Shown in pieces: positions 1 to 11,697 of a stretch of 64,000 bases of DNA; positions within the stretch are counted from its first letter, which is position 1, and each line of letters starts with the position of its first letter. Source of the stretch: Streptomyces rubradiris. Lineage in GTDB: Bacteria > Actinomycetota > Actinomycetes > Streptomycetales > Streptomycetaceae. The translations under genes and the position numbers were made by a program. A model generated the notes under the pieces. It saw only the letters and a list, made by a program, of their open reading frames with translations, made no database searches and was not told where the DNA came from. The DNA is taken from the NCBI RefSeq assembly GCF_016860525.1, contig NZ_BNEA01000015.1, forward strand, positions 1,054,001 to 1,118,000, read 5' to 3'.

Positions 1-1753
1 GGCTGCGGCGCAGACTCTGACGACGCGTTCGGCGGCGGCGATCGCGGCGAGCGCGGAGGAGGCCGACAAGCTGGGTGCCCCGCTGAACAGTGACGCGGCG
101 GACAGCGACGCCATGGAGGGCATGGACGTGGCGCCGGGCGCGGAGACGGACGAAGGTTCCGCGAAGTCCCGGCTGGCCGAACTGGCCGAACGTGCCGCGC
201 AGTTGGAAGGCCCGGAGAAGGACCTCAAGCTGAAGGCGCTCATCAAGCACCTCAAGGCGCTGCTGGCTGACGGCTACAACCCGATCGTCTTCTGCCGCTA
301 CATCCCGACGGCGAAGTACCTGGCCGAGCAGTTGGCGAACGACCCGGAGAAGAAGAAGCGCGGTCCGCTGGGCGCGAAGACGGTCGTGAAGGCGGTCACG
401 GGTGAGCTGTCTCCGCAGCAGCGCATCGAGCGGATCGAGGAGCTGGCGGCGGAGGCCGGCGAGGACGCGGCGGCCCGCCGGGTCCTGATCGCCACGGACT
501 GCCTGTCGGAAGGTGTGAACCTCCAGCACTACTTCGACGCCGTGGTCCACTACGACCTGGCCTGGAACCCGACCCGCCACGACCAGCGCGAGGGCCGCGT
601 CGACCGCTACGGCCAGCGCCGCGACGAGGTACGGGTCATCACGCTCTACGGCGACGACAACGGCATCGACGGCAAGGTCCTGGAGGTGCTGATCAAGAAG
701 CACCGCCAGATCAAGAAGGACCTGGGCATCTCGGTGTCCGTCCCGGACGAGCTCTCCACGGGCGTGACGGACGCGATCGTGGAGTGGCTGCTGATGCGCG
801 GCCGCGAGGACCAGGACGCACTGTTCAGCGCGGACGCGTTCAAGGTGAGCAAGGAGAAGCTGGAGAACGACTGGAACTCGGCGGCGGAGCGCGAGCGCAC
901 CTCCCGCTCCCGTTTCGCACAGCGCTCGATCCACCCGGAGGAGGTGGCCCGCGAGGTCGCCTCGATCCGGGAGGCACTGGGCGGGGCGGGCGAGATCCGG
1001 ACGTTCGTACGGGAGTCTCTGGGCGCGCTCGGTGCCGTGCTCCGGGGCGAGGGCGAGGACTTCACGGCGCAGGTCGGCGGCACGCCAGCGGGCCTGCGGG
1101 ACGCGCTCGCGTCGACCGTGGGCGCGGACGTGATCGAGAAGGACCGCGCGATCCCGTTCCGGACCGATCCGGCGGTGGCACGCGGTGAGGCAGCCCTGGT
1201 GCGCACGGACCCGGTCGTGGGCGCGCTCGCGTCCCACGTCCTGAACGCCGCCCTGGACACCCAGGCGGAGGGCGCCCGCCCGGCCCGCCGCTGCGGTGTG
1301 ATCACGACGGACGCGGTGAGTACGCGAACGACGTTGCTGCTGGTCCGCTACCGCTTCCACCTCACCCTGCCCTCCCGGCACGGCGAGCGCCAGCTGGTGG
1401 CGGAGGACGCCCGGCTGCTGGCGTTCGAGGGCGCACCGAGGAACGCGGTGTGGCTGCCGCAGGAGCGGGCGGCCGAACTGCTGGACGCGACGGCCTCGGA
1501 GAACACGGACCCGCACTTCGGCGAGCGGACGATGGCCCGCATTCTCGGACAGCTGACCGATGTGGACGAGCATCTGAAGGCGTACGGCGAGGAGCTGGCC
1601 GCCGAACTGGACGCCGCCCACCGCCGGGTGCGCGCCGCGTCCGGCGAGATCGTCCGCGGCTTGTCGGTCACGGCCCAGAAGGAAGCCGACATCCTCGGCG
1701 CCTACGTCTACCTCCCCGCCACCACCTCTGTTCCCGCTGGAGCGTCCGCCTGA
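1..1753 (+). CDS. SNF2-type helicase, C-terminal part
   Basis: The reading frame is open from base 2, so the gene starts upstream of the window. What is visible is the second helicase lobe and a C-terminal extension. Motif IV-like FCRYIPTAKYLAEQL, motif V (VLIATDCLSEGVNLQ) and motif VI (NPTRHDQREGRVDRYGQ) are typical of SNF2/SF2 DNA translocases. The remaining 350 or so residues are an extension of unrecognised fold. The stop codon overlaps the methyltransferase start by one base (TGATG), so the two are translated together. A SNF2 helicase followed by a giant adenine methylase is the layout of drmD-drmMI in class 1 DISARM and of helicase-methylase-ATPase type systems. The DISARM hallmark genes drmA and drmB do not follow here. 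Confidence 0.9.
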   Translation, partial: AAAQTLTTRSAAAIAASAEEADKLGAPLNSDAADSDAMEGMDVAPGAETDEGSAKSRLAELAERAAQLEGPEKDLKLKALIKHLKALLADGYNPIVFCRYIPTAKYLAEQLANDPEKKKRGPLGAKTVVKAVTGELSPQQRIERIEELAAEAGEDAAARRVLIATDCLSEGVNLQHYFDAVVHYDLAWNPTRHDQREGRVDRYGQRRDEVRVITLYGDDNGIDGKVLEVLIKKHRQIKKDLGISVSVPDELSTGVTDAIVEWLLMRGREDQDALFSADAFKVSKEKLENDWNSAAERERTSRSRFAQRSIHPEEVAREVASIREALGGAGEIRTFVRESLGALGAVLRGEGEDFTAQVGGTPAGLRDALASTVGADVIEKDRAIPFRTDPAVARGEAALVRTDPVVGALASHVLNAALDTQAEGARPARRCGVITTDAVSTRTTLLLVRYRFHLTLPSRHGERQLVAEDARLLAFEGAPRNAVWLPQERAAELLDATASENTDPHFGERTMARILGQLTDVDEHLKAYGEELAAELDAAHRRVRAASGEIVRGLSVTAQKEADILGAYVYLPATTSVPAGASA

Positions 1754-4700
1754 TGTCCGCCACCACCCGCAACCAGGTGTTCACCGCCATCCACACGGTC
1801 GGGGGGCTGCTGCCGGCCGACATGCTCCTGAGAATCTCGGAGGGCAAGGATGTCCCGGGCTCCAAGCCCGCCGACTACGGCCTGCCCTCCTCGCGCTCGG
1901 TACGGGACGAGGCGGAACGCGGCTGGGAGTACCTCAAGCCGCTGTGGCGGGAGCTGCGCCGACGGCTGCCGGAGAACCGGGAGACGGGCGTGCCCGCCGC
2001 CGACCCGACCGGCATCGCCGACTCCGACTGGCTCACTCCCTTGTGGCGCGAGCTGGGCTTTGGCCGGCTGACGCAGGTCGGCGCGACCGGCATCCCCGCC
2101 GACTCCGACCCGGAGAAGAAGTTCCCGGTCTCCCACCGCTGGCAACACACGCTGATCCACCAGACGCCATGGAACACCGACCTGGACCGCCGCCCCGGCG
2201 GCGCGGGCACGGTGCCGCCGCAGTCGATGCTCCAGGAGTGCCTGAACCGCACGGAGGCCCACCTGTGGGGCGTCCTGACGAACGGGCGGCAGGTGCGGCT
2301 GCTGCGGGACTCCAGCGCGCTCGCCACGGCGTCGTACGTCGAGTTCGACCTCGAGGCGATCTTCGACGGCGAACTCTTCAGCGAGTTCGTGCTGCTGTAC
2401 CGGCTGCTGCACGCCTCGCGGTTCGAGGTGGCGGAGGGGGCGCCGCCGTCCACGTGCTGGCTGGAGGCCTGGCGCACGGCGGCCATCGAGTCCGGCACAC
2501 GCGCCCTGGAGCACTACCGGGACGGCGTGCAGCAGGCCCTGGCCGCGCTCGGCACGGGTTTCCTGCGCCACCCGGACAACACGGCCCTGCGGGAGAATCT
2601 GGACCCGTCGGCACTCCAATCGGCGCTGCTGCGCCTGGTCTACCGGCTGATCTTCCTCTTCGTGGCCGAGGACCGCGACGCCCTGCTGTCACCGGAAGCC
2701 GACGAGCAGGCCCGCGCCCGCTACCACCGCTACTTCTCGACAGCCCGACTGCGTGAGCGGGCCCAGCGCAGGCAGGGCACCGCGCACAGCGACCAGTACG
2801 AGGCGCTACGGCTCGTCCTCACCGCGCTCGGCGACGAACAGGGCCGGCCGGAACTGGGCCTCCCCGGACTCGGCGGCCTGTTCAACACGACGGACGCGGA
2901 CGCACCGCTGCACGGGGCTCGCATCTCGAACCGGTACTTCCTGGAGGCGGTACGCCACCTCGCGCGCGTCCGCGACTCCGGACGCTGGCGCCCCGCCGAC
3001 TACCGTCACATGGGCGCCGAGGAGCTGGGCTCGGTGTACGAGGCGCTGCTGGAGCTGGTGCCGAAGCACAGCGCGGCGAACCGCTCGTTCGAGCTGGTCG
3101 ACCGGGCAGGCAACGACCGCAAGAAGACGGGCAGTTACTACACCCCGTCCGCCCTGACGGAGACGCTCCTCGACTCCACGCTCGACCCGGTGATAGACGC
3201 AGCTGTGGCGCGAGGCGAGGAGCGGGCCCGGTCGGAGGGCCGCCAGGACCCCGCCGACACGATCGTCGAGGAACTGCTGTCCCTGACGATCTGCGACCCG
3301 GCCTGCGGCTCCGGCCACTTCCTCGTGGCGTCCGCCCGTCGGATCGCCAAGCGGGTCGCGTCGGTACGGGAGCGCAATCCCGAGCCGACGGTTGACGCGG
3401 TGCGGCATGCCATGCACGAGGTTGTCGCCCGGTGTGTCTACGGCGTGGACCTCAACCCCATGGCGGTGGAGCTGGCCAAGGTGTCGTTGTGGCTGGAGGC
3501 CATGGAACCCGGCCGCCCGCTCGGCTTCCTCGACGCCCACATCAAGCACGGCAACGGCCTCATCGGCGCCACGCCTGCGCTGATGAAGGACGGCATCCCC
3601 AGCCGGGCGTTCAAGAAGACAGAGGGGGACGACGAGGCGTACGCAAAGAGGCTGTTCGCCGAGAACGAGCAGCAGCGCGCCGGGCAGGGCCTCCTGTTTG
3701 AGGCGGAGGAGCGCGAGCCGAACGTCGCCAATACCGCGTTCGCGACAAGCCTCCGCCGCATCACCTCCGCGCCGGCGCGCACTCTGGCGCAGGTGCGCCG
3801 CAAGGAGGAGGCGTTCAAGGCGTGGTCGACGTCCGCGGAGTATCTGCGGGCGCTGCACCTGGCTGACGCCTGGTGTGCCGCGTTCGTGTGGGTGAAGCGG
3901 GAGGATGCGCCGCCGGCCATCACGCACCGGGTGTTCCGGGGCCTGGAGGATCCCGAGGGTGACGCGGCTCCGCAGTCGACGCACGACGAGATCGTGCGCC
4001 TGCGGGAGCAGTACGCGTTCTTCCACTGGCACCTGGAGTTTCCTGAGGTGTTCAGCGTGCCGGAGGAGCACGCGGACGGGGTGGACCCGACCACCGGGTG
4101 GGCGGGCGGGTTCTCGTGCGTGGTGGGCAACCCGCCGTGGGACAAGGTCGACTTCGAGGACAAGAAGTACTTCAGCGTCGTCGACCCGGAGATCGCCGCG
4201 ATCTCGGGTACGGCTCGGCGGACGCGGATCGCGGAGTGGGAGCGGGAGCACCCTGTGGAGGGGGCGCGGTATCGGGAGGCACGCCGGACTGTTAAGGGGA
4301 CGTTCCATTTCGCGGGGGACTCGGAGGTCTTTCCGCTGTGCGCGAAGGGGTTGACGGTCAAGGGCGTCAACTCGCTTCAGACAGATACCTTGTTCGCCGA
4401 GCGCATGTCGAGCGTGGTGGCGCCGGAGGGGCGGTTCGGCGTCATTCTGCCTACGGCCATTGCGACGGGGGCGGGCTCACAGCACCTCTTCTCGGACTTC
4501 ACACGCCGGGCGGCGCTGGTTTCTCTGTACGACTTCGAGAACCGGCGTCCTAAGAGCCCTGCGCTGCCGAAGGGTGGAAAGTGGTTCGAGAGCGTGCACT
4601 CCAGCTACAAGTTCTGCCTGATCTCGCTCACTGGTCGGGCGGTACGGGAGCCTGCCGCGCGCTTCGGCTTCTTCCTCGCCGAGATCACCGACCTCGACAA

Positions 4701-5901
4701 TCCGGAGCGCGTGTTCGCTCTGAGCCCCAAGGACCTCGCCCTCATCAACCCCAACACGGGCACGCTTCCGGTGTTCCGGACCCGCCGGGACGCGGAGCTG
4801 ACGGCGGGGATCTACCACCGGATGCCGGTGCTGTGGGACGAGAGGCGCCGGGGTGGCAATCCGTGGGGCATGAGTTTCAAAAACCTATGCAACATGACCG
4901 ACGACTCTGACCTCTTCCGTACACGTGAGCAGCTGGAGAACGCTGGCTGGCGAGCGGAAGGCAACGTCTTCCTGCGGTACGGGGAGCGGATGCTTCCGCT
5001 GTACGAGGGCAAGATGGCCCACCTCTTCGATCACCGTTGGAACTCCTACACCGGGACGGGCAACGAGGACCGCCGCCGGTTCGAGTCCACCGAGAAGCAG
5101 GACCCTGCAGTCTGCGCCGACCCTCGCTACTGGATCGCGGAGCGCGGGCCGATCACCACCATCCGCAAGGGCAACGAGGTCGAGGAACGCGGTGTCGCCG
5201 AGCGCCTCGACGAGGTGGCCTGGGACCACGACTGGCTGCTCGGGTGGCGCGACATCTGCCGTACCACTGATGAGCGCACCGCCATCCCGGCCTTCCTCCC
5301 CCGGGTTGCCGTCGGCCACACGTACCCCCTGATGCTGCCCCGCGTGTCCCCACCTCTGGTGGCCGCCCTGGTGGCCACCCAGTCCTCCCTGGTCTTCGAC
5401 TTCGTCAGCCGCCAGAAGATCAGCGACGCCCACATGAAACTGTTCGTGTGGAAGCAACTCCCCGTCCCCACCCCCACCACCCTCGAACCCCACCTCCCCT
5501 TCCTCCTCCCCCGCGTCCTCGAACTCGTCTACACGGCATACGACATGACCCCCCTCGCCCGCGACCTGGGCGACGAGGGCGAGCCGTTCCGCTGGGACGA
5601 GGCGCGGCGGGCGCAGCTGCGGGCCGAGTTGGACGCGTACTTCTTCCACCTGTACGGCATCTCTGCGGAGGACACCGACTACATCCTGGAGACTTTCCAG
5701 TCGGAGTCGGGCGGCCTGAAGAACAACGAGATCGCCAAGTTCGGCGAGTACCGCACCAAGCGACTCGTCCTCACCGAGTACGCCCGCATGGCCGACGCCG
5801 GCCTGACCCTGGAGAAGCCCCTCATCGACGGCGAGACCTACACCTCTCCCCTCACCCCACCCCCAGGCCACGGCCCCCGGCACGAAGGAATCGGAGAGTG
5901 A
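1753..5901 (+). CDS. large adenine-specific N6 DNA methyltransferase (Eco57I/PglX/DrmMI-like)
   Basis: About 1382 residues. The start is the ATG that overlaps the helicase stop; the open frame continues upstream, but that part lies in shadow of the helicase gene. SAM-binding motif I is DPACGSGHFLVA (from about residue 515). The catalytic motif IV is NPPW (about residue 793) inside VVGNPPWDKVDFEDKKYF. Order and size fit type IIG/PglX-like gamma-class methylases that make N6-methyladenine, with a C-terminal specificity region. I saw no nuclease motif in the N-terminal 300 residues, so it probably marks self DNA while partner proteins attack unmarked DNA. It ends in a GTGA overlap with the J-like gene. 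Confidence 0.9.
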   Translation: MSATTRNQVFTAIHTVGGLLPADMLLRISEGKDVPGSKPADYGLPSSRSVRDEAERGWEYLKPLWRELRRRLPENRETGVPAADPTGIADSDWLTPLWRELGFGRLTQVGATGIPADSDPEKKFPVSHRWQHTLIHQTPWNTDLDRRPGGAGTVPPQSMLQECLNRTEAHLWGVLTNGRQVRLLRDSSALATASYVEFDLEAIFDGELFSEFVLLYRLLHASRFEVAEGAPPSTCWLEAWRTAAIESGTRALEHYRDGVQQALAALGTGFLRHPDNTALRENLDPSALQSALLRLVYRLIFLFVAEDRDALLSPEADEQARARYHRYFSTARLRERAQRRQGTAHSDQYEALRLVLTALGDEQGRPELGLPGLGGLFNTTDADAPLHGARISNRYFLEAVRHLARVRDSGRWRPADYRHMGAEELGSVYEALLELVPKHSAANRSFELVDRAGNDRKKTGSYYTPSALTETLLDSTLDPVIDAAVARGEERARSEGRQDPADTIVEELLSLTICDPACGSGHFLVASARRIAKRVASVRERNPEPTVDAVRHAMHEVVARCVYGVDLNPMAVELAKVSLWLEAMEPGRPLGFLDAHIKHGNGLIGATPALMKDGIPSRAFKKTEGDDEAYAKRLFAENEQQRAGQGLLFEAEEREPNVANTAFATSLRRITSAPARTLAQVRRKEEAFKAWSTSAEYLRALHLADAWCAAFVWVKREDAPPAITHRVFRGLEDPEGDAAPQSTHDEIVRLREQYAFFHWHLEFPEVFSVPEEHADGVDPTTGWAGGFSCVVGNPPWDKVDFEDKKYFSVVDPEIAAISGTARRTRIAEWEREHPVEGARYREARRTVKGTFHFAGDSEVFPLCAKGLTVKGVNSLQTDTLFAERMSSVVAPEGRFGVILPTAIATGAGSQHLFSDFTRRAALVSLYDFENRRPKSPALPKGGKWFESVHSSYKFCLISLTGRAVREPAARFGFFLAEITDLDNPERVFALSPKDLALINPNTGTLPVFRTRRDAELTAGIYHRMPVLWDERRRGGNPWGMSFKNLCNMTDDSDLFRTREQLENAGWRAEGNVFLRYGERMLPLYEGKMAHLFDHRWNSYTGTGNEDRRRFESTEKQDPAVCADPRYWIAERGPITTIRKGNEVEERGVAERLDEVAWDHDWLLGWRDICRTTDERTAIPAFLPRVAVGHTYPLMLPRVSPPLVAALVATQSSLVFDFVSRQKISDAHMKLFVWKQLPVPTPTTLEPHLPFLLPRVLELVYTAYDMTPLARDLGDEGEPFRWDEARRAQLRAELDAYFFHLYGISAEDTDYILETFQSESGGLKNNEIAKFGEYRTKRLVLTEYARMADAGLTLEKPLIDGETYTSPLTPPPGHGPRHEGIGE

Positions 5902-7556
5902 CGAGTCCGCCGCCGGCCGGCGGGGCGGGGCAGCCGATGTCGGGGACGCGGGCCGAAGCGGTCGCACGGGAGCGGGAGCGGCTGCGGGCACTCAGGGAGC
6001 GCCGGGAGGCCCTGAGCGCGGACGCGGGAGTCGACGGATTCACCATACGCAGGTGGCGGAAGGTGGGGGTGTTCGGAGCCCAGGCGGTATTACAGGCCCA
6101 CGCTCTGCTCCAACAACTCGCCTCCCTCGCGCGGGACGCGACGCACGACGCCCTGGCCGACGCCCTGCGCGACGAACCGGACGACCGGCTGCTGCCCGCG
6201 GTGCGGACCGTCCTCGAGCGGGCCAACCCCGCCATCGCCGCCGCGACGCTTACGGCGATCCACGCCGGCGGCTTCCTGTGGATGTCGGAGTTCGGGGAGC
6301 AACGGCTCACCGCCCTAACAGCGGGCGACGACGCGCTCGTCGTCTCCGGGAGCGAGGACCCTTCCGGGGCCTTCGCCCTTCTCACGGCTTTCGCGACGGA
6401 CGGTACGGCCACCTTCCCGCCTCGCATGCTGCCGCGTGTGCTTCCCTGGATACCACTGAGCGTCCTCGACGACCTCATCGACGCCGAGGTAGTTGGCCCT
6501 GAGCACCAGCCCTGGCAGTACCGGACTGACGAGGCGAGGCACGCGTACCTCAAAGCCCGTCTGGTTCCTGACCAGGTAACTGCCGAGCAGGCAGCTGCGC
6601 TGGAGTGGACGACCTGGCAGCGGCGGAACGCGTTTCTCGCCGGAGGCGAGCCGCTGCCCTCGGTCGGCGACGTCTACGACCTCTTGGAACTAGTCGCCGA
6701 CGGCGATGCCTCGGTGGTGAAGGAGCTCGAAAGGGAGCTGCCCCGCGATCTGGTGCTCCGGCTGCGCCGGATCCTGGGCGGGGTTAATGTCGGCAACTGG
6801 GACCGGGATATATGGGAAGACAGGGGATTGTGGCGGCTCATTTTCTCTCTCTGGGAGCCCAAGGCAGCCGTCAACCCGTCACGGTCGCCCATGCACGCGC
6901 TCATGGCCCTGCGTCAGGCCTACGCCCTGCTGTGCCTGAACGACCTCGCCCGTGCGTCGTCCCAGATAGACAAGCTGGTGTCGTTCGAGACCGCTGACCC
7001 GGCCTATCGGGCCGAGGCCCTCAACTTCCATGCGTACACGCTGCTGCTCCGAGACGAACTGAACGCGGCGGCCATCGTCCTGAAGGGGATAAGCAGATCG
7101 AACGAGCTGGCCGAGTCCAACCTCCGCATGGTCGAGCAGCGTCGGGCCGTTCCCCGTAACGACAGACTGGCAGCGTCCAACCCCTATCTGGACCTCGGGC
7201 TGCCGCACGGCGCGCCGAGCTGGGAAACCCGGTACCGAGACCTCCGCCGGGAGCATATGCACGACGTGGACATGAGCGCACGGCTCAACAGCGCGATGAA
7301 ACGCATCAGGGACGCCGAGCGCGACGAGGACTGGTCCGGCTTCTTCGTGCTACCACTCGACCCGGACGTGTTCGAGCTTCCGGACGAGGTGCCGGTCACG
7401 CTGGTCCCGCCCCTGGCTCCGCTGACCAGGCGAACGACGCCTCACTCCCCCGAAAGTCTGGCGCTCGTGCGGCAGCGGGCGGTGGCCGATCTGCTGCCTC
7501 ACCTGCTCAACGCGCCCCGGCGCCCCGATCGCAACTCAAGGATGCACACACAGTGA
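5898..7556 (+). CDS. J-domain-like protein of the chaperone module
   Basis: About 552 residues from a GTG that overlaps the methyltransferase stop (GTGA); an ATG at 5937 is the alternative. The N-terminal two thirds is alpha-helical and unrecognised, with a TPR-like helical stretch near residues 330-420. Residues about 428-480 follow the J-domain pattern: NPYLDLGLPHGA, then YRDLRRE in the place of helix II, then a LN-A--RI helix III. The signature HPD loop reads H453-M-H-D456. J-domain proteins stimulate Hsp70 ATPase and hand over clients, and an Hsp70 gene lies two genes downstream. The J assignment is inference from pattern. Residue 65 is a TTA codon (6090-6092), so translation may depend on the bldA tRNA. 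Confidence 0.65.
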   Translation: MTSPPPAGGAGQPMSGTRAEAVARERERLRALRERREALSADAGVDGFTIRRWRKVGVFGAQAVLQAHALLQQLASLARDATHDALADALRDEPDDRLLPAVRTVLERANPAIAAATLTAIHAGGFLWMSEFGEQRLTALTAGDDALVVSGSEDPSGAFALLTAFATDGTATFPPRMLPRVLPWIPLSVLDDLIDAEVVGPEHQPWQYRTDEARHAYLKARLVPDQVTAEQAAALEWTTWQRRNAFLAGGEPLPSVGDVYDLLELVADGDASVVKELERELPRDLVLRLRRILGGVNVGNWDRDIWEDRGLWRLIFSLWEPKAAVNPSRSPMHALMALRQAYALLCLNDLARASSQIDKLVSFETADPAYRAEALNFHAYTLLLRDELNAAAIVLKGISRSNELAESNLRMVEQRRAVPRNDRLAASNPYLDLGLPHGAPSWETRYRDLRREHMHDVDMSARLNSAMKRIRDAERDEDWSGFFVLPLDPDVFELPDEVPVTLVPPLAPLTRRTTPHSPESLALVRQRAVADLLPHLLNAPRRPDRNSRMHTQ

Positions 7557-8167
7557 AGAAGGTGCCCCGTAGCCAGCGGAAGACCACAGTGGCCCCCAAG
7601 CGGGTCACCCCCAAGGGGAACAACGGCCTGAAACATCGTCGGGAGAAGCGGCGGGCGGCGGCCGATGTCCCCAAGGACTCCCCGCTCACCTACCGTCCCG
7701 ACGAACTACTCAGCCCTCCCATGTTGCTTTCCCGTTTCGCCGAGCGGGCGACCGATCTCATGGCCGCTCTCCCCGAGGATGCACAACCCACGCAGGCAGC
7801 TGTGACAGCTGCCTTGCGGCAGGCCGTTCTGGAGGCGTTTCGCTCCAGGGAGGAGTACGTGGCCCGGATGGTCGAGGTCGATCTGCTCGCCGGCGCGCCC
7901 AACCAGAGTGCCCGTTCGCTTCGGAAGGGCATCCGTACCGCATTGCTGGACCAAGGTGTGCGGTGCGTGGACTCACCCGACGGCGAAAGCGAGCTCTTCG
8001 TGGTGGTGGAAGGCGAGGGTAAGGCGTTCGAAGTGCTGCGCCCGGCCTACGTGGACCAGGCCACCGGCAAGTTGGTGCTCTCCGGGCAACTGCGCCGCCT
8101 ACCCGGGCCCGACGGAGGAGACCACTCTGCCGTGGACGACGAGGCAACGGACGGGGAGGGCATGTGA
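7553..8167 (+). CDS. GrpE-like putative nucleotide exchange factor
   Basis: 204 residues, starting at a GTG that overlaps the previous stop and ending in a GTGA overlap with the Hsp70 gene. The first 45 residues are very basic (KRRAAA-type) and probably disordered. A long helical region (about residues 55-130) leads into a beta-rich tail: DQGVRCVDSPDGESELFVVV, then VLRPAYV and LVLSGQLRRL (about 134-185). This resembles the GrpE order of long helix, G-V-x-x-I/V, and a beta domain with LRPA-V. GrpE releases ADP from Hsp70. Similarity is weak by eye, but the place between a J-like gene and an Hsp70 gene supports it. Otherwise it is an orphan small subunit. Confidence 0.55.
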   Translation: MKKVPRSQRKTTVAPKRVTPKGNNGLKHRREKRRAAADVPKDSPLTYRPDELLSPPMLLSRFAERATDLMAALPEDAQPTQAAVTAALRQAVLEAFRSREEYVARMVEVDLLAGAPNQSARSLRKGIRTALLDQGVRCVDSPDGESELFVVVEGEGKAFEVLRPAYVDQATGKLVLSGQLRRLPGPDGGDHSAVDDEATDGEGM

Positions 8168-10281
8168 CCGCCACCGGAATCGATTTCGGCACCACCAACT
8201 CCGTGGTGGCCCAGTGGCTGGGCACCGACGCCGACGTGCTGCTGGACGCCCACCATATCGACGCCGACTGGCGCCATCCCGGCTTCGAGTACCTCTTCCC
8301 GTCTGTGGTGGGCATGAGTTCGCTGCGTCGGGGGGCATTGTTCGGCTGGGAGGCCAAGCTCCGCTCCGAGGAGGCGGCCGAGGCATGCAAGCGACTTCTC
8401 AAGAGCGATGAGTACGTCACGATCCACGGCCGCAGATTCGCGGCCACGACGGTGGCCGCCAGTGTTTTCCAGGCCATGCGGAAGGGTGCGGAGCATAACC
8501 TCACCGCCATCGACCAGGCTGTGATCACCGTGCCCGCCAACGCCACGGGTGCCGCGCGCTATCGCACGCGGGTCGCTGCGCAGTTCGCGGGCATCGACGC
8601 CCTGGCGCTGCTCAACGAGCCTACGGCAGCCGCGATCTCATACGCGCACGATCTACGACATGACCTACATGAGCTACGGAAGGACCCCACCATTCTGGTC
8701 TTCGACTGGGGTGGCGGCACGATCGACGTCACCGTGCTCGACTACCAGGACGGGTTCTTCGAGGAGCTTGCGTCACGGGGTGTGACCGAGCTCGGCGGTC
8801 TGGAGATCGATCGCCGTCTGCGTAACCTCGTCCTCGAACGGGCTCCGGCGCGATCGGCGTGGACGCCCGCGCAGGAGCGGCAGTTCGGGTTGGACGTGGA
8901 GCGCAGCAAGATCCGCCTTTCCTCCGAAGACTCCGTCACCATCAGGACTCCGGACGGTGACACCATCGAGGTGTGGCAGGAGGAGCTGGAGGACGCCATC
9001 ACCGACCTGGTGGACCGAGCTCTCGCACCGGTCCAGCAGTGCCTCACCGACCTGCACATGGCGCCCCTGGACGTGGACGCGGTGCTGATGATCGGGGGCA
9101 CCAGCCAGATCCCGAGCGTGCGGGCTGCGGTCGCCGAGGTCATGCAGCAGCAGCCGGTCGGGGTCGACCTGTGCGATCCCATGACCGCGGTCGCCCGCGG
9201 CGCCTCCATCGCGGCAGCTGTGCTGTCGGGAGAGGTGGACGGCGTGATCCAGGTGGCGACCAGCCATGCCCTGGGTACGGTCGTCACAGACGACACCGGG
9301 CAGCGAAAGTTCAGCCAGATCATTCCGCGCAACTCACCGCTGCCGTGGAAGGAGCGCAAGAACTACACGCCGCGCCGGGACAATGCCCGCAGTCTCGCGG
9401 TGGAGATCTGGGAGGGAGACCCGGAGCGGCCCCTGGATCACCCCGACAACGTGCAGCTGACAGACCTCCGACTCACCTATCAGGAACCCCGGGCTCGTGA
9501 GGACTCCCGGTTCCTGCTGGAGTACACGTACGACACGAACGGGCTCCTGCACGTCAAGGCGACCCTTGAACGCACCGGCGAAGAGGTGCTGAACGAGGAG
9601 ATCAAGAGTTTCAGCTCTGGTGGTCCAACGCCAGAAGTACGCAAGGAGCTTGAGGGTCTACTCGCGGGCAACACAGTCACCAGGCCACTGCCGACGCAGG
9701 CCAGGAAAAAGCCAGCGCCGGGTTCGGCGCCTGCGGTGCTCGTGGTGGACGGCTCCAACCTGGCGTGGATCGGCAGATCGCCTCGGCAACCCGGTGTATA
9801 CGGCAGCGATGACCGGCCGTCGTACACCCAACTGCTTTCCGCCCGCGACGCCCTGGCATCGCGGTATCCCGACGCCGTACTCCACGTGGTCGTCGACGCG
9901 ACTTTCAGGCACAAGGTCGCGGAAGAAGAACGCGCGGCAGTGGACTCGGCGCTCAGCAAAGGAGACCTCATCCAGCCTCCGGCTGGAACCGAAGGCAAGG
10001 GTGACGCGCTTGTCACGGCGATCGCGGAGGACACTCACGGAACTGTCGTCACAAACGACAACTACGTCGAGTTGCACAGCAGATATCCATGGCTGCGGGA
10101 CAAGGAGCGAGTGCTCGGGGTCACGTTGTCACAAGGCATGTGGGTTTTCACACCGCGCACCTGCGTACCACCTCGCCATCGGGTCGTACGAGCGGAGCTG
10201 CCTCAGCAGTCCCGAGCCCTGACTCCTCCGAGCCCGTACCCACTCGCCGAGTTCAGGTACCACCGCCCCCACGAGGAGTAG
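8164..10281 (+). CDS. Hsp70 (DnaK-like) fused to a C-terminal NYN/PIN-type ribonuclease domain
   Basis: 705 residues; GTG start overlapping the preceding stop. The Hsp70 nucleotide-binding domain is complete: GIDFGTTNSVVA (phosphate 1, residues 4-15), NEPTAAAISYA, FDWGGGTID (phosphate 2, about 180) and VLMIGGTSQIPSVR (adenosine motif, about 307). A short substrate-binding-like beta region covers about 375-495. After a linker, residues about 523-680 look like an NYN/Zc3h12a-type nuclease: VLVVDGSNLAW with D529 and N532, VVVDAT with D578, GKGDALV with D614, and VVTNDNYVE with D632. Four spaced acidic residues fit a metal-dependent RNase. Fusion of chaperone and nuclease suggests that ATP-gated client sensing unleashes RNA cleavage, which is inference. 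Confidence 0.85.
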   Translation: MTATGIDFGTTNSVVAQWLGTDADVLLDAHHIDADWRHPGFEYLFPSVVGMSSLRRGALFGWEAKLRSEEAAEACKRLLKSDEYVTIHGRRFAATTVAASVFQAMRKGAEHNLTAIDQAVITVPANATGAARYRTRVAAQFAGIDALALLNEPTAAAISYAHDLRHDLHELRKDPTILVFDWGGGTIDVTVLDYQDGFFEELASRGVTELGGLEIDRRLRNLVLERAPARSAWTPAQERQFGLDVERSKIRLSSEDSVTIRTPDGDTIEVWQEELEDAITDLVDRALAPVQQCLTDLHMAPLDVDAVLMIGGTSQIPSVRAAVAEVMQQQPVGVDLCDPMTAVARGASIAAAVLSGEVDGVIQVATSHALGTVVTDDTGQRKFSQIIPRNSPLPWKERKNYTPRRDNARSLAVEIWEGDPERPLDHPDNVQLTDLRLTYQEPRAREDSRFLLEYTYDTNGLLHVKATLERTGEEVLNEEIKSFSSGGPTPEVRKELEGLLAGNTVTRPLPTQARKKPAPGSAPAVLVVDGSNLAWIGRSPRQPGVYGSDDRPSYTQLLSARDALASRYPDAVLHVVVDATFRHKVAEEERAAVDSALSKGDLIQPPAGTEGKGDALVTAIAEDTHGTVVTNDNYVELHSRYPWLRDKERVLGVTLSQGMWVFTPRTCVPPRHRVVRAELPQQSRALTPPSPYPLAEFRYHRPHEE

Positions 10282-10521: not shown

Positions 10522-11697
10522 GTGAGCGACCGGCGTGACCCGCAGCAGCCCGATCGGCTTCCCTCGGACTACGAGCTTGAGGCATGGCGTGCCATCCAGG
10601 AGTTCAAGGGCCGCCCGCTGTCGCGAACCATCCAGAACGCCGGCGAGGCCGTGGGCAACGGCGTCGCGGAACTCGGCAAGCGCGCGTCGAAGCAGCTGGA
10701 GAAGCGCCCGCGTGCCAGGGCGGCGGTCTCGCGGGGACAGGATTTCGTCGCCAAGGGGGCTCAGAAGGTGGGCGCCGGGGCGCGGAGTGCTGCCGAGGTG
10801 ATGCCGGATTGGGGCGGCGCAGCGGTGAACTCCATACGAAGGGCCGTGGGACGCGTCTCGCGGGCCGGGCTCTCCCCCGAGCGGGTGGTGGCGCGCCATC
10901 AGAAGCACGGGCACGAGGTCGAGTCGCTGCGTGACGTGCGGCGCCTCGACTTGAAGCAGGTCGACGCGGTCCGGGGGCGGGCGGCGAGCTGGTACTTCCC
11001 GGCCGCCGCCGCACTCTCCGGGGCGACCACAGGAATCGTGATCTCCGGAGGACAACTTGCCATCGCCGCCTCCGCCGGCGCAGCGGCGGCGCCGTCGGGA
11101 GGCGCGATCGCAGGCGCGTTCGTCGCCGACACCGCGGCCGTCCTCGGGCTCGCTTCCCGCGCGGTCGGCCAGGTCTCGCTGTTCTACGGCTACGACCCCG
11201 AACAGCCCGCCGAGAAGCTCTTCGTGATGTCGGTCGTCAACGTGGGGACGGCGAGTTCGGCGACCGCCAAGAACGCCGCGATGGCCGACATCTCACGGCT
11301 CACCCAGGCCCTGTTCCGCGGCAAGCCGTGGAAGGTCCTGAACGACTCGCTCGTCACCACGGTGTCCCAGCAGTTCGCGAAGGCCTTCGGATTCCGCCTC
11401 ACGAAGAAGAGTCTCGGCAAGGCCGTGCCCCTGGTCGGGGTCGCGGTGGGAAGCACCCTCAACTGGACCACGATGGAGGGAATCGTCGACGCTGCCGAGA
11501 TGGCGTACCGACGACGATTCCTTTTGGAGAAGTATCCGCATCTCGCCGACGAAGAGGAATCCGGCTGGATCACCGCCCCCGACGCGGACGTCCCTGACGA
11601 CGCCGACGAGGAGATCAGCGTGTTGAGTGAGATCGTTCTTGCGGGCGGACCCGACCTCCACTCGTCCGGTGACCCGGCGGCCGAAGAGACCATGTGA
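10522..11697 (+). CDS. EcsC-family protein
   Basis: 391 residues from a GTG preceded by AGGAG. The C-terminal half carries the EcsC-like pattern: a hydrophobic glycine/alanine-rich stretch (about residues 165-215), FYGYDPEQPAEKLFVMSVV, a basic LTKKSLGKAVPLVGVAVGS segment and YRRRFLLEK. The N-terminal 150 residues are charged and helical. EcsC proteins are poorly understood and probably membrane-associated. The gene is 240 bases downstream of the Hsp70-nuclease gene and so may be a separate transcript; a role in the defence operon is only suggested by position. No clear signal peptide is present. Confidence 0.7.
   Translation: MSDRRDPQQPDRLPSDYELEAWRAIQEFKGRPLSRTIQNAGEAVGNGVAELGKRASKQLEKRPRARAAVSRGQDFVAKGAQKVGAGARSAAEVMPDWGGAAVNSIRRAVGRVSRAGLSPERVVARHQKHGHEVESLRDVRRLDLKQVDAVRGRAASWYFPAAAALSGATTGIVISGGQLAIAASAGAAAAPSGGAIAGAFVADTAAVLGLASRAVGQVSLFYGYDPEQPAEKLFVMSVVNVGTASSATAKNAAMADISRLTQALFRGKPWKVLNDSLVTTVSQQFAKAFGFRLTKKSLGKAVPLVGVAVGSTLNWTTMEGIVDAAEMAYRRRFLLEKYPHLADEEESGWITAPDADVPDDADEEISVLSEIVLAGGPDLHSSGDPAAEETM

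Follow-up and report, generated by a model that had tools for sequence, protein, structure and literature searches.

In Streptomyces rubradiris, a three-gene chaperone-RNase module lies at the 3′ end of a helicase-helicase-methylase trio that matches ARMADA type I. It encodes a J-like protein, a GrpE-like protein and an Hsp70 that carries an NYN nuclease-like domain (Hsp70-NYN). The genes are found in a window of 64,000 nucleotides (contig NZ_BNEA01000015.1, G000:C15:1054001-1118000, G000 being the window's own 9.05-Mb genome). ARMADA systems and conflict operons with HSP70, GrpE and J proteins are each known separately; the new element is the putative Hsp70-NYN switch with a rewired J contact. 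There is about an even chance that the module is an orthogonal Hsp70 switch that gates an RNase, acting as a second line beside a DNA-targeting defence. The first-pass annotation of this DNA described five genes (helicase, methylase, J-like, GrpE-like and Hsp70-NYN) as overlapping end to start. The coordinates confirm this, with overlaps of 1-4 bases, and the operon is larger than the window shows, its edge cutting off the gene of a 2,100-aa kinase-YprA helicase and part of the SNF2 helicase gene. The five genes are part of the ARMADA type I-like trio together with the separable module. The proposal that they form one indivisible system fails: within the genus the ARMADA SNF2 gene occurs in 38/246 genomes (E 1e-120), only 4 of these 38 have the module within 10 kb, and most modules occur away from ARMADA. 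A strict five-gene system is thus rejected because trio and triad mostly occur apart across genomes.

The Hsp70 consists of a nucleotide-binding domain (NBD) and the beta part of the substrate-binding domain (SBD), with the ATPase motifs and the catalytic lysine retained. The helical lid is absent and an NYN domain takes its place. This domain passes the Pfam cut-off for NYN/Zc3h12a and has the four acidic residues, which are invariant across 30 aligned proteins; the ten PDB sequences that best match its profile are all KHNYN or ZC3H12A/B/C. Motifs, Pfam and PDB matches therefore agree with the first reading of an Hsp70 with complete motifs and a C-terminal nuclease-like domain. Among the matches listed, all four NYN motifs are present (by loose patterns) in 99 of 120 Hsp70 homologues, the remaining 21, some of them fragments, being without one or more. 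Cleavage of RNA by this domain is predicted from its sequence. In animals, ZC3H12-type NYN proteins regulate host mRNA.

The contact between DnaK and DnaJ depends on the HPD motif, whose D35 bonds R167 of DnaK and whose H33 bonds L391 of the linker (available text of PMC8215388 and PMC13012618). Of 120 Hsp70 homologues among the matches listed, 117 have A, T or M in place of R167 (3 not scored), while the host's own DnaK retains R. The VLLLD linker is replaced by VIQVA or a similar sequence in eight aligned relatives. Judged by these residues, neither partner retains its side of the canonical J-Hsp70 contact, with HPD, R167 and the VLLLD linker all gone. With the ATPase residues kept and the contact residues lost, ATP hydrolysis by this protein is probable, but stimulation by ordinary J proteins is not. 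The R167 change is shared by L089 and L091, two relatives without NYN, and the short J-like protein of L089 is also devoid of HPD, so the contact may have been rewired before the RNase was fused.

The J-like protein is alpha-helical, with a TPR-like middle, a degenerate C-terminal J domain and a conserved tail. None of 34 aligned J-like proteins has HPD between helices II and III, and none of 29 matches Pfam DnaJ. HPD is found in 2 of 85 J-like proteins among the matches listed, in the tail and not at the J position. A Foldseek search with the whole model returns only weak hits of E 0.15 or higher, most of them to TPR-type structures, and for the C-terminal part none of them is a J-domain structure. 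A canonical J protein is rejected for want of HPD. What stands of the earlier assignment is a J-like/TPR protein; its J domain is degenerate and the HPD is missing, so canonical J action is unlikely. The 204-aa partner has a GrpE fold (long helix and beta domain), which upholds its assignment as GrpE-like. Comparison of its sequence profile with GrpE is weak (probability 13 %, from the 6 of 16 loci whose domain was detected by a simple motif pattern) yet scores above 60/60 shuffles. Searches of the PDB with the J-like and the GrpE-like profiles give nothing useful. There is no match to the J-like protein in phage records (E limit 1e-5) or to Hsp70-NYN in plasmid records (E limit 1e-100).

The helicase and methylase genes

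The kinase-YprA gene encodes Pkinase (Pfam 8.8e-47), DEAD, Helicase_C and MZB zinc domains and is closest to the Druantia DruE models of PADLOC (337 bits). The C-terminus of the protein appears Vsr-like by eye only, with no useful PDB sequence match and no Pfam match. The full SNF2 gene gives 1956 bits with PADLOC model PDLC02853 (labelled DpdE), followed by DrmD (276) and BrxH (190), and the methylase matches DrmMI. By eye the kinase HRD and DFG motifs, the helicase Walker motifs and the methylase S-adenosylmethionine-binding and NPPW motifs are intact. A true DpdE is rejected, as the window part of the SNF2 gene reaches 59.7 bits with the NCBIfam DpdE model against a 500-bit cut-off; with the same part of the gene the NCBIfam DrmD cut-off is also not reached.

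The order of the genes is that of ARMADA type I, a YprA-like helicase followed by a BrxHII-like SNF2 helicase and a PglX-like methylase. DISARM has DrmA with a separate DrmB/DUF1998 and DrmC. Between the kinase-YprA gene and the EcsC gene there is no separate drmB or drmC, and the MZB domain sits within the same protein as the helicase. Assignment to class 1 DISARM or to Hma is rejected on gene content. The helicase-methylase pair, first likened to DISARM and Hma, is closer to ARMADA/DISARM than to Hma and is not new, as the kinase-YprA, SNF2 and methylase genes match ARMADA type I.

In 12 of 13 loci with a close SNF2 protein (75-94 %), kinase and YprA form a single open frame of 2,097-2,133 aa; the contig of the thirteenth starts too late to show the state of the kinase. 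Seven distant loci (SNF2 52-59 %) comprise four with a separate kinase of ~315 aa just upstream, facing away, and three in which none is seen. The fusion probably arose within this lineage. The loci concerned, outside the window's genome, are L054 and L159-L178. The kinase-fused helicase is a further ARMADA variant that can be tested separately. Of 20 loci retrieved from places without a nearby triad, all 20 have the methylase gene after the SNF2 gene. Across L092-L111 the ARMADA methylase has diverged more (56-73 % to that of the window) than the SNF2 protein beside it (74-94 %), which would fit changing target recognition by the methylase.

Distribution and movement of the triad

Named homologues are found in Streptomyces and a few other Streptomycetaceae. 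Hsp70-NYN proteins of this kind occur in 17/246 genomes of the genus. Besides the window's own, 16 genomes carry them, with a J-like gene in 15 and a GrpE-like gene in 13 by tblastn and in 2 more by reading the gap; L053 holds a truncated Hsp70-NYN alone. A scan of named genomes with the J-like profile yields 21 loci, in which the J-like gene is present by construction; GrpE-like, Hsp70 and NYN accompany it in every one of the 21, with the order unchanged. ARMADA genes lie directly upstream in 5 of the 21 (L008-L011, L013). In L012, L014 and L015 only the first 50-65 residues of the kinase are left and the triad is retained; in L012 and L014 the remnant continues in the same open frame into the C-terminus of the methylase. 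A further 11 loci (L017-L026, L028) have an SF1 UvrD-like helicase of ~1,200 aa upstream (Pfam was run on one), and L016 and L027 have neither. The chaperone-RNase triad is a portable module that moves by itself. Triads of clades B, C and D share an insertion hotspot, marked by a conserved HsdM-like gene that lies upstream on the opposite strand, in some loci together with HsdS/HsdR.

In the genus sample the triad is within 10 kb of ARMADA genes in 4/17 genomes: in the window, G226 and G143 they form one operon, and in G144 (L054) they face away. Among 394 genomes sampled class-wide, the J-like profile matches ten, three of which (G306, G320, G324) are of a distant type. With these excluded, a YprA-family helicase adjoins the triad in 5/7 genomes; both this count and the 4/17 include the window. 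The other four are L084, with a DruE-like gene after NYN, and L086-L088, where the triad directly follows druF-druL-druE of Druantia type IV. In G491 and G513 the triad has no adjoining YprA-family helicase. Within the genus, an ARMADA SNF2 gene is present in 8/17 genomes with a triad versus 30/229 others (Fisher 0.0014, or 0.004 without the window's genome). The link to YprA-family helicases is recurrent yet optional.

The Druantia IV-linked triads have no NYN domain. In the Hsp70 tree they join two Hsp70s with a degenerate NYN (100/100), in which most catalytic acids are lost by eye (L060, at L060:12250-14307, and L061). The group with intact NYN has moderate support (77/79), and the tree is not securely rooted. 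Because the tree joins the NYN-less triads with the degenerate clade, NYN has perhaps been lost in the Druantia IV-linked triads.

Possible function and related systems

Building on the gene order, folds, conserved residues and distribution, the trigger, RNA target, direction of switching and protective role can be proposed as follows. The Hsp70, with an NYN RNase replacing its lid, would act as an ATP-driven switch that holds or releases the RNase, and the GrpE-like protein would reset the switch by nucleotide exchange. The HPD-less TPR/J-like protein would be an adaptor tethering a trigger or partner, in place of canonical J action. With the matching arginine and linker gone from the Hsp70 as well, the host's general DnaJ should be unable to drive it, so the RNase would stay off in the presence of ordinary unfolded protein. 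The client supplied by infection might be a phage protein, a stalled complex or some state of the adjoining helicase system. The right client would make the switch free the NYN domain to cut RNA, a second line beside the DNA-targeting ARMADA that would resemble the RelE-like RNase domain carried by a fourth protein in ARMADA type II. Methylation may serve to mark self, as the first-pass annotation proposed. A more specific form of the proposal, held somewhat more tentatively, is a portable orthogonal Hsp70 with a ZC3H12/KHNYN-type RNase lid, insulated from DnaJ by the loss of HPD, R167 and VLLLD, that would serve as an ATP-clocked guard plugging into ARMADA and Druantia.

Several observations weigh against this proposal. 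The J-domain homology is weak (probability 23 %, with a DnaJ comparison set of the 17 of 31 loci whose domain was detected by a simple motif pattern). ARMADA is mostly found without the module (34/38) and the module mostly without ARMADA (13/17). Druantia IV has the triad in 3/16 DruE4 genomes and is without it in 13/16, these 13 loci having been read for ~9 kb downstream only, or less where the contig ended. Related genomes make the Fisher value optimistic, and part of the co-localisation could simply reflect residence in common defence islands. The absence of NYN from the Druantia IV-linked triads and its decay in one clade imply that some triads can do without the RNase. A related NYN-less chaperone set (L089, L090), encoding a protein of 836-841 aa, a small GrpE-like protein (by eye, L089), an Hsp70 and a short J-like protein, adjoins genes that by eye are housekeeping-like; the neighbours are the same in both genomes. 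This set is a possible ancestor of the triad. The first-pass annotation had named homologues confined to non-defence contexts as evidence against a defence role. This is partly the case, in that the housekeeping-like surroundings of L089 and L090 are those of a distant, NYN-less type.

The triad could instead be a dedicated chaperone for folding or assembling the very large YprA helicases (1,800-2,100 aa), to which NYN was added later to clear aberrant or ribosome-bound mRNA. Triads that directly follow DruE4 without NYN and the tight gene overlap with the helicase operon fit such a role. Most triads, however, lie away from any YprA helicase, the triad is missing from the majority of DruE4 loci and of ARMADA loci, and three clade A loci have lost the ARMADA genes and retained the triad, making this quite unlikely. 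That same retention, and the occurrence of the module alone, with an SF1 helicase (11/21 loci) or near HsdM genes, would suit an independent defence or toxin-type system whose only tie to ARMADA and Druantia is residence in the same islands; the overlap seen in the window would then be an accident of insertion. This is judged unlikely, as several arrangements co-localise with one helicase family, for which a rough estimate gives ~6e-4 even with the chance raised 30-fold by islands. Lastly, the Hsp70 might sense proteotoxic stress and the NYN domain trim host transcripts in a stress or developmental regulator with no part in defence. The regulation of host mRNA by animal ZC3H12-type proteins and the housekeeping-like neighbours of the NYN-less relative agree with a regulator of this type, but the patchy distribution, the defence-like neighbours and the loss of the canonical J contact, which argues against general sensing of unfolded protein, render it improbable.

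The known systems that come closest are here compared through the available text of the papers cited. ARMADA type I comprises a YprA helicase, a BrxHII/RapA-like SNF2 helicase and a PglX-like methylase, and an ARMADA type II system, in which a fourth protein has a RelE-like RNase domain, gives non-abortive protection in E. coli (Bell et al. 2025, bioRxiv preprint, PMC12458937). The S. rubradiris locus shares the type I gene order, with a YprA gene most like Druantia DruE, and differs in the kinase fused to the N-terminus of YprA and in the chaperone-RNase triad after the methylase. The main text of the preprint, as far as available, makes no mention of kinase, Hsp70, DnaK, GrpE, NYN or chaperone. 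Druantia type IV is described as DruE, DruF and DruL only (PADLOC paper, PMC8565338). A J/GrpE/Hsp70 core follows these three genes in L086-L088, where DruE, DruF and DruL are all found, but with Hsp70s that have no NYN; the window has neither DruF nor DruL, and DruE4 is not found in G000 (E 1e-150). No PADLOC model covers the triad proteins.

GAP1-N2 double-GTPase conflict systems of actinobacteria include some with HSP70, GrpE and DnaJ/TPR proteins (Kaur et al. 2020, PMC7159879). The same three proteins occur together here and clade A relatives also have two GTPases, although these are MMR_HSR1/Dynamin_N proteins and the NYN domain is fused to the Hsp70; GAP1 and FNIII have no match among the proteins scanned with Pfam, which cover some of the neighbours only. 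The CnuD/CnuCD proteins of CoCoNuT are Hsp70-like components of a restriction-type system proposed to act on RNA, with degenerate Walker A-like motifs in CnuD and no GrpE or J protein of their own (Bell et al. 2024, PMC11090510). An Hsp70 domain in a restriction-type system with a proposed RNA target is common to both, whereas the Hsp70 described here keeps its ATPase motifs and carries the RNase domain itself. The NYN sequence resembles ZC3H12/KHNYN proteins, as seen in its ten best PDB matches, and differs in being fused to an Hsp70 with its own GrpE-like and J-like partners. In line with the first-pass annotation, which knew of no such defence system, a literature search finds no description of this composition, and none of its papers combines Druantia with GrpE, most subscription papers and all supplements being outside its reach.

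If the proposal is correct, the Hsp70 cycle, normally used for folding, would be an immune switch with a built-in effector: it would trigger an RNase, and its rewiring should keep ordinary proteotoxic stress from setting the RNase off. ARMADA and Druantia would, in addition, be shown to accept exchangeable add-on modules. Natural Hsp70/J-like pairs without HPD and R167 offer material for testing how J proteins drive Hsp70.

Gene coordinates and neighbouring genes

Table 1. Coordinates of the operon, its neighbours and related features in other loci (positions without prefix are those of the window)
Feature	Position	Strand	Remarks
Kinase-YprA helicase, 2,100 aa	G000:C15:1046485-1052787, outside window		ends 29 bases before SNF2 start
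SNF2-type helicase, 3′ part	1..1753	+	whole gene 978 aa, likely start G000:C15:1052817, upstream of window
Eco57I/PglX/DrmMI-like adenine DNA methylase, 1,382 aa	1753..5901	+	Eco57I 2.6e-14; DrmMI 236 bits
J-like protein	5898..7556	+	552 aa from GTG 5898, 539 aa from ATG 5937
GrpE-fold protein, 204 aa	7553..8167	+	
Hsp70-NYN, 705 aa	8164..10281	+	NBD/SBD ~1-490, NYN ~524-670
EcsC-family protein	10522..11697	+	Pfam EcsC 7.3e-25; 240 bases past Hsp70-NYN
GajA/GajB-like pair	window:12863-17349		PADLOC 608 and 358 bits
McrB/McrC-like genes	window:18728-25774		with UvrD-like helicase (N-terminus RelE-like by eye) or N6 methylase
2,010-aa protein	window:26519-32551	-	weak AAA_22 match only, no PADLOC match
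Kinase remnants	L012:9505-9885, L014:9609-9977, L015:9696-9884		remaining ARMADA genes missing
HsdM-like gene upstream of triad	L018, L020, L021, L023, L026-L028, L055, L056, L059, L061		

Downstream of Hsp70-NYN the window contains genes for an EcsC-family protein, a GajA/GajB-like pair, McrB/McrC-like proteins, a UvrD-like helicase and an N6 methylase. The presence of the GajA/GajB-like and McrBC-like genes bears out the supposed defence neighbourhood. The EcsC gene is a possible further member of the operon. In nine clade A loci (L008-L015 and G226/L046) two GTPases directly follow Hsp70-NYN, those of L012 matching MMR_HSR1 in Pfam and one of them also Dynamin_N. The window has no such pair, and EcsC occupies that place. 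The GajA-like frame as listed opens with a histidine-kinase-like ATPase stretch. An McrB/McrC-like set is also found downstream of ARMADA in other genomes (L100, L105-L108).

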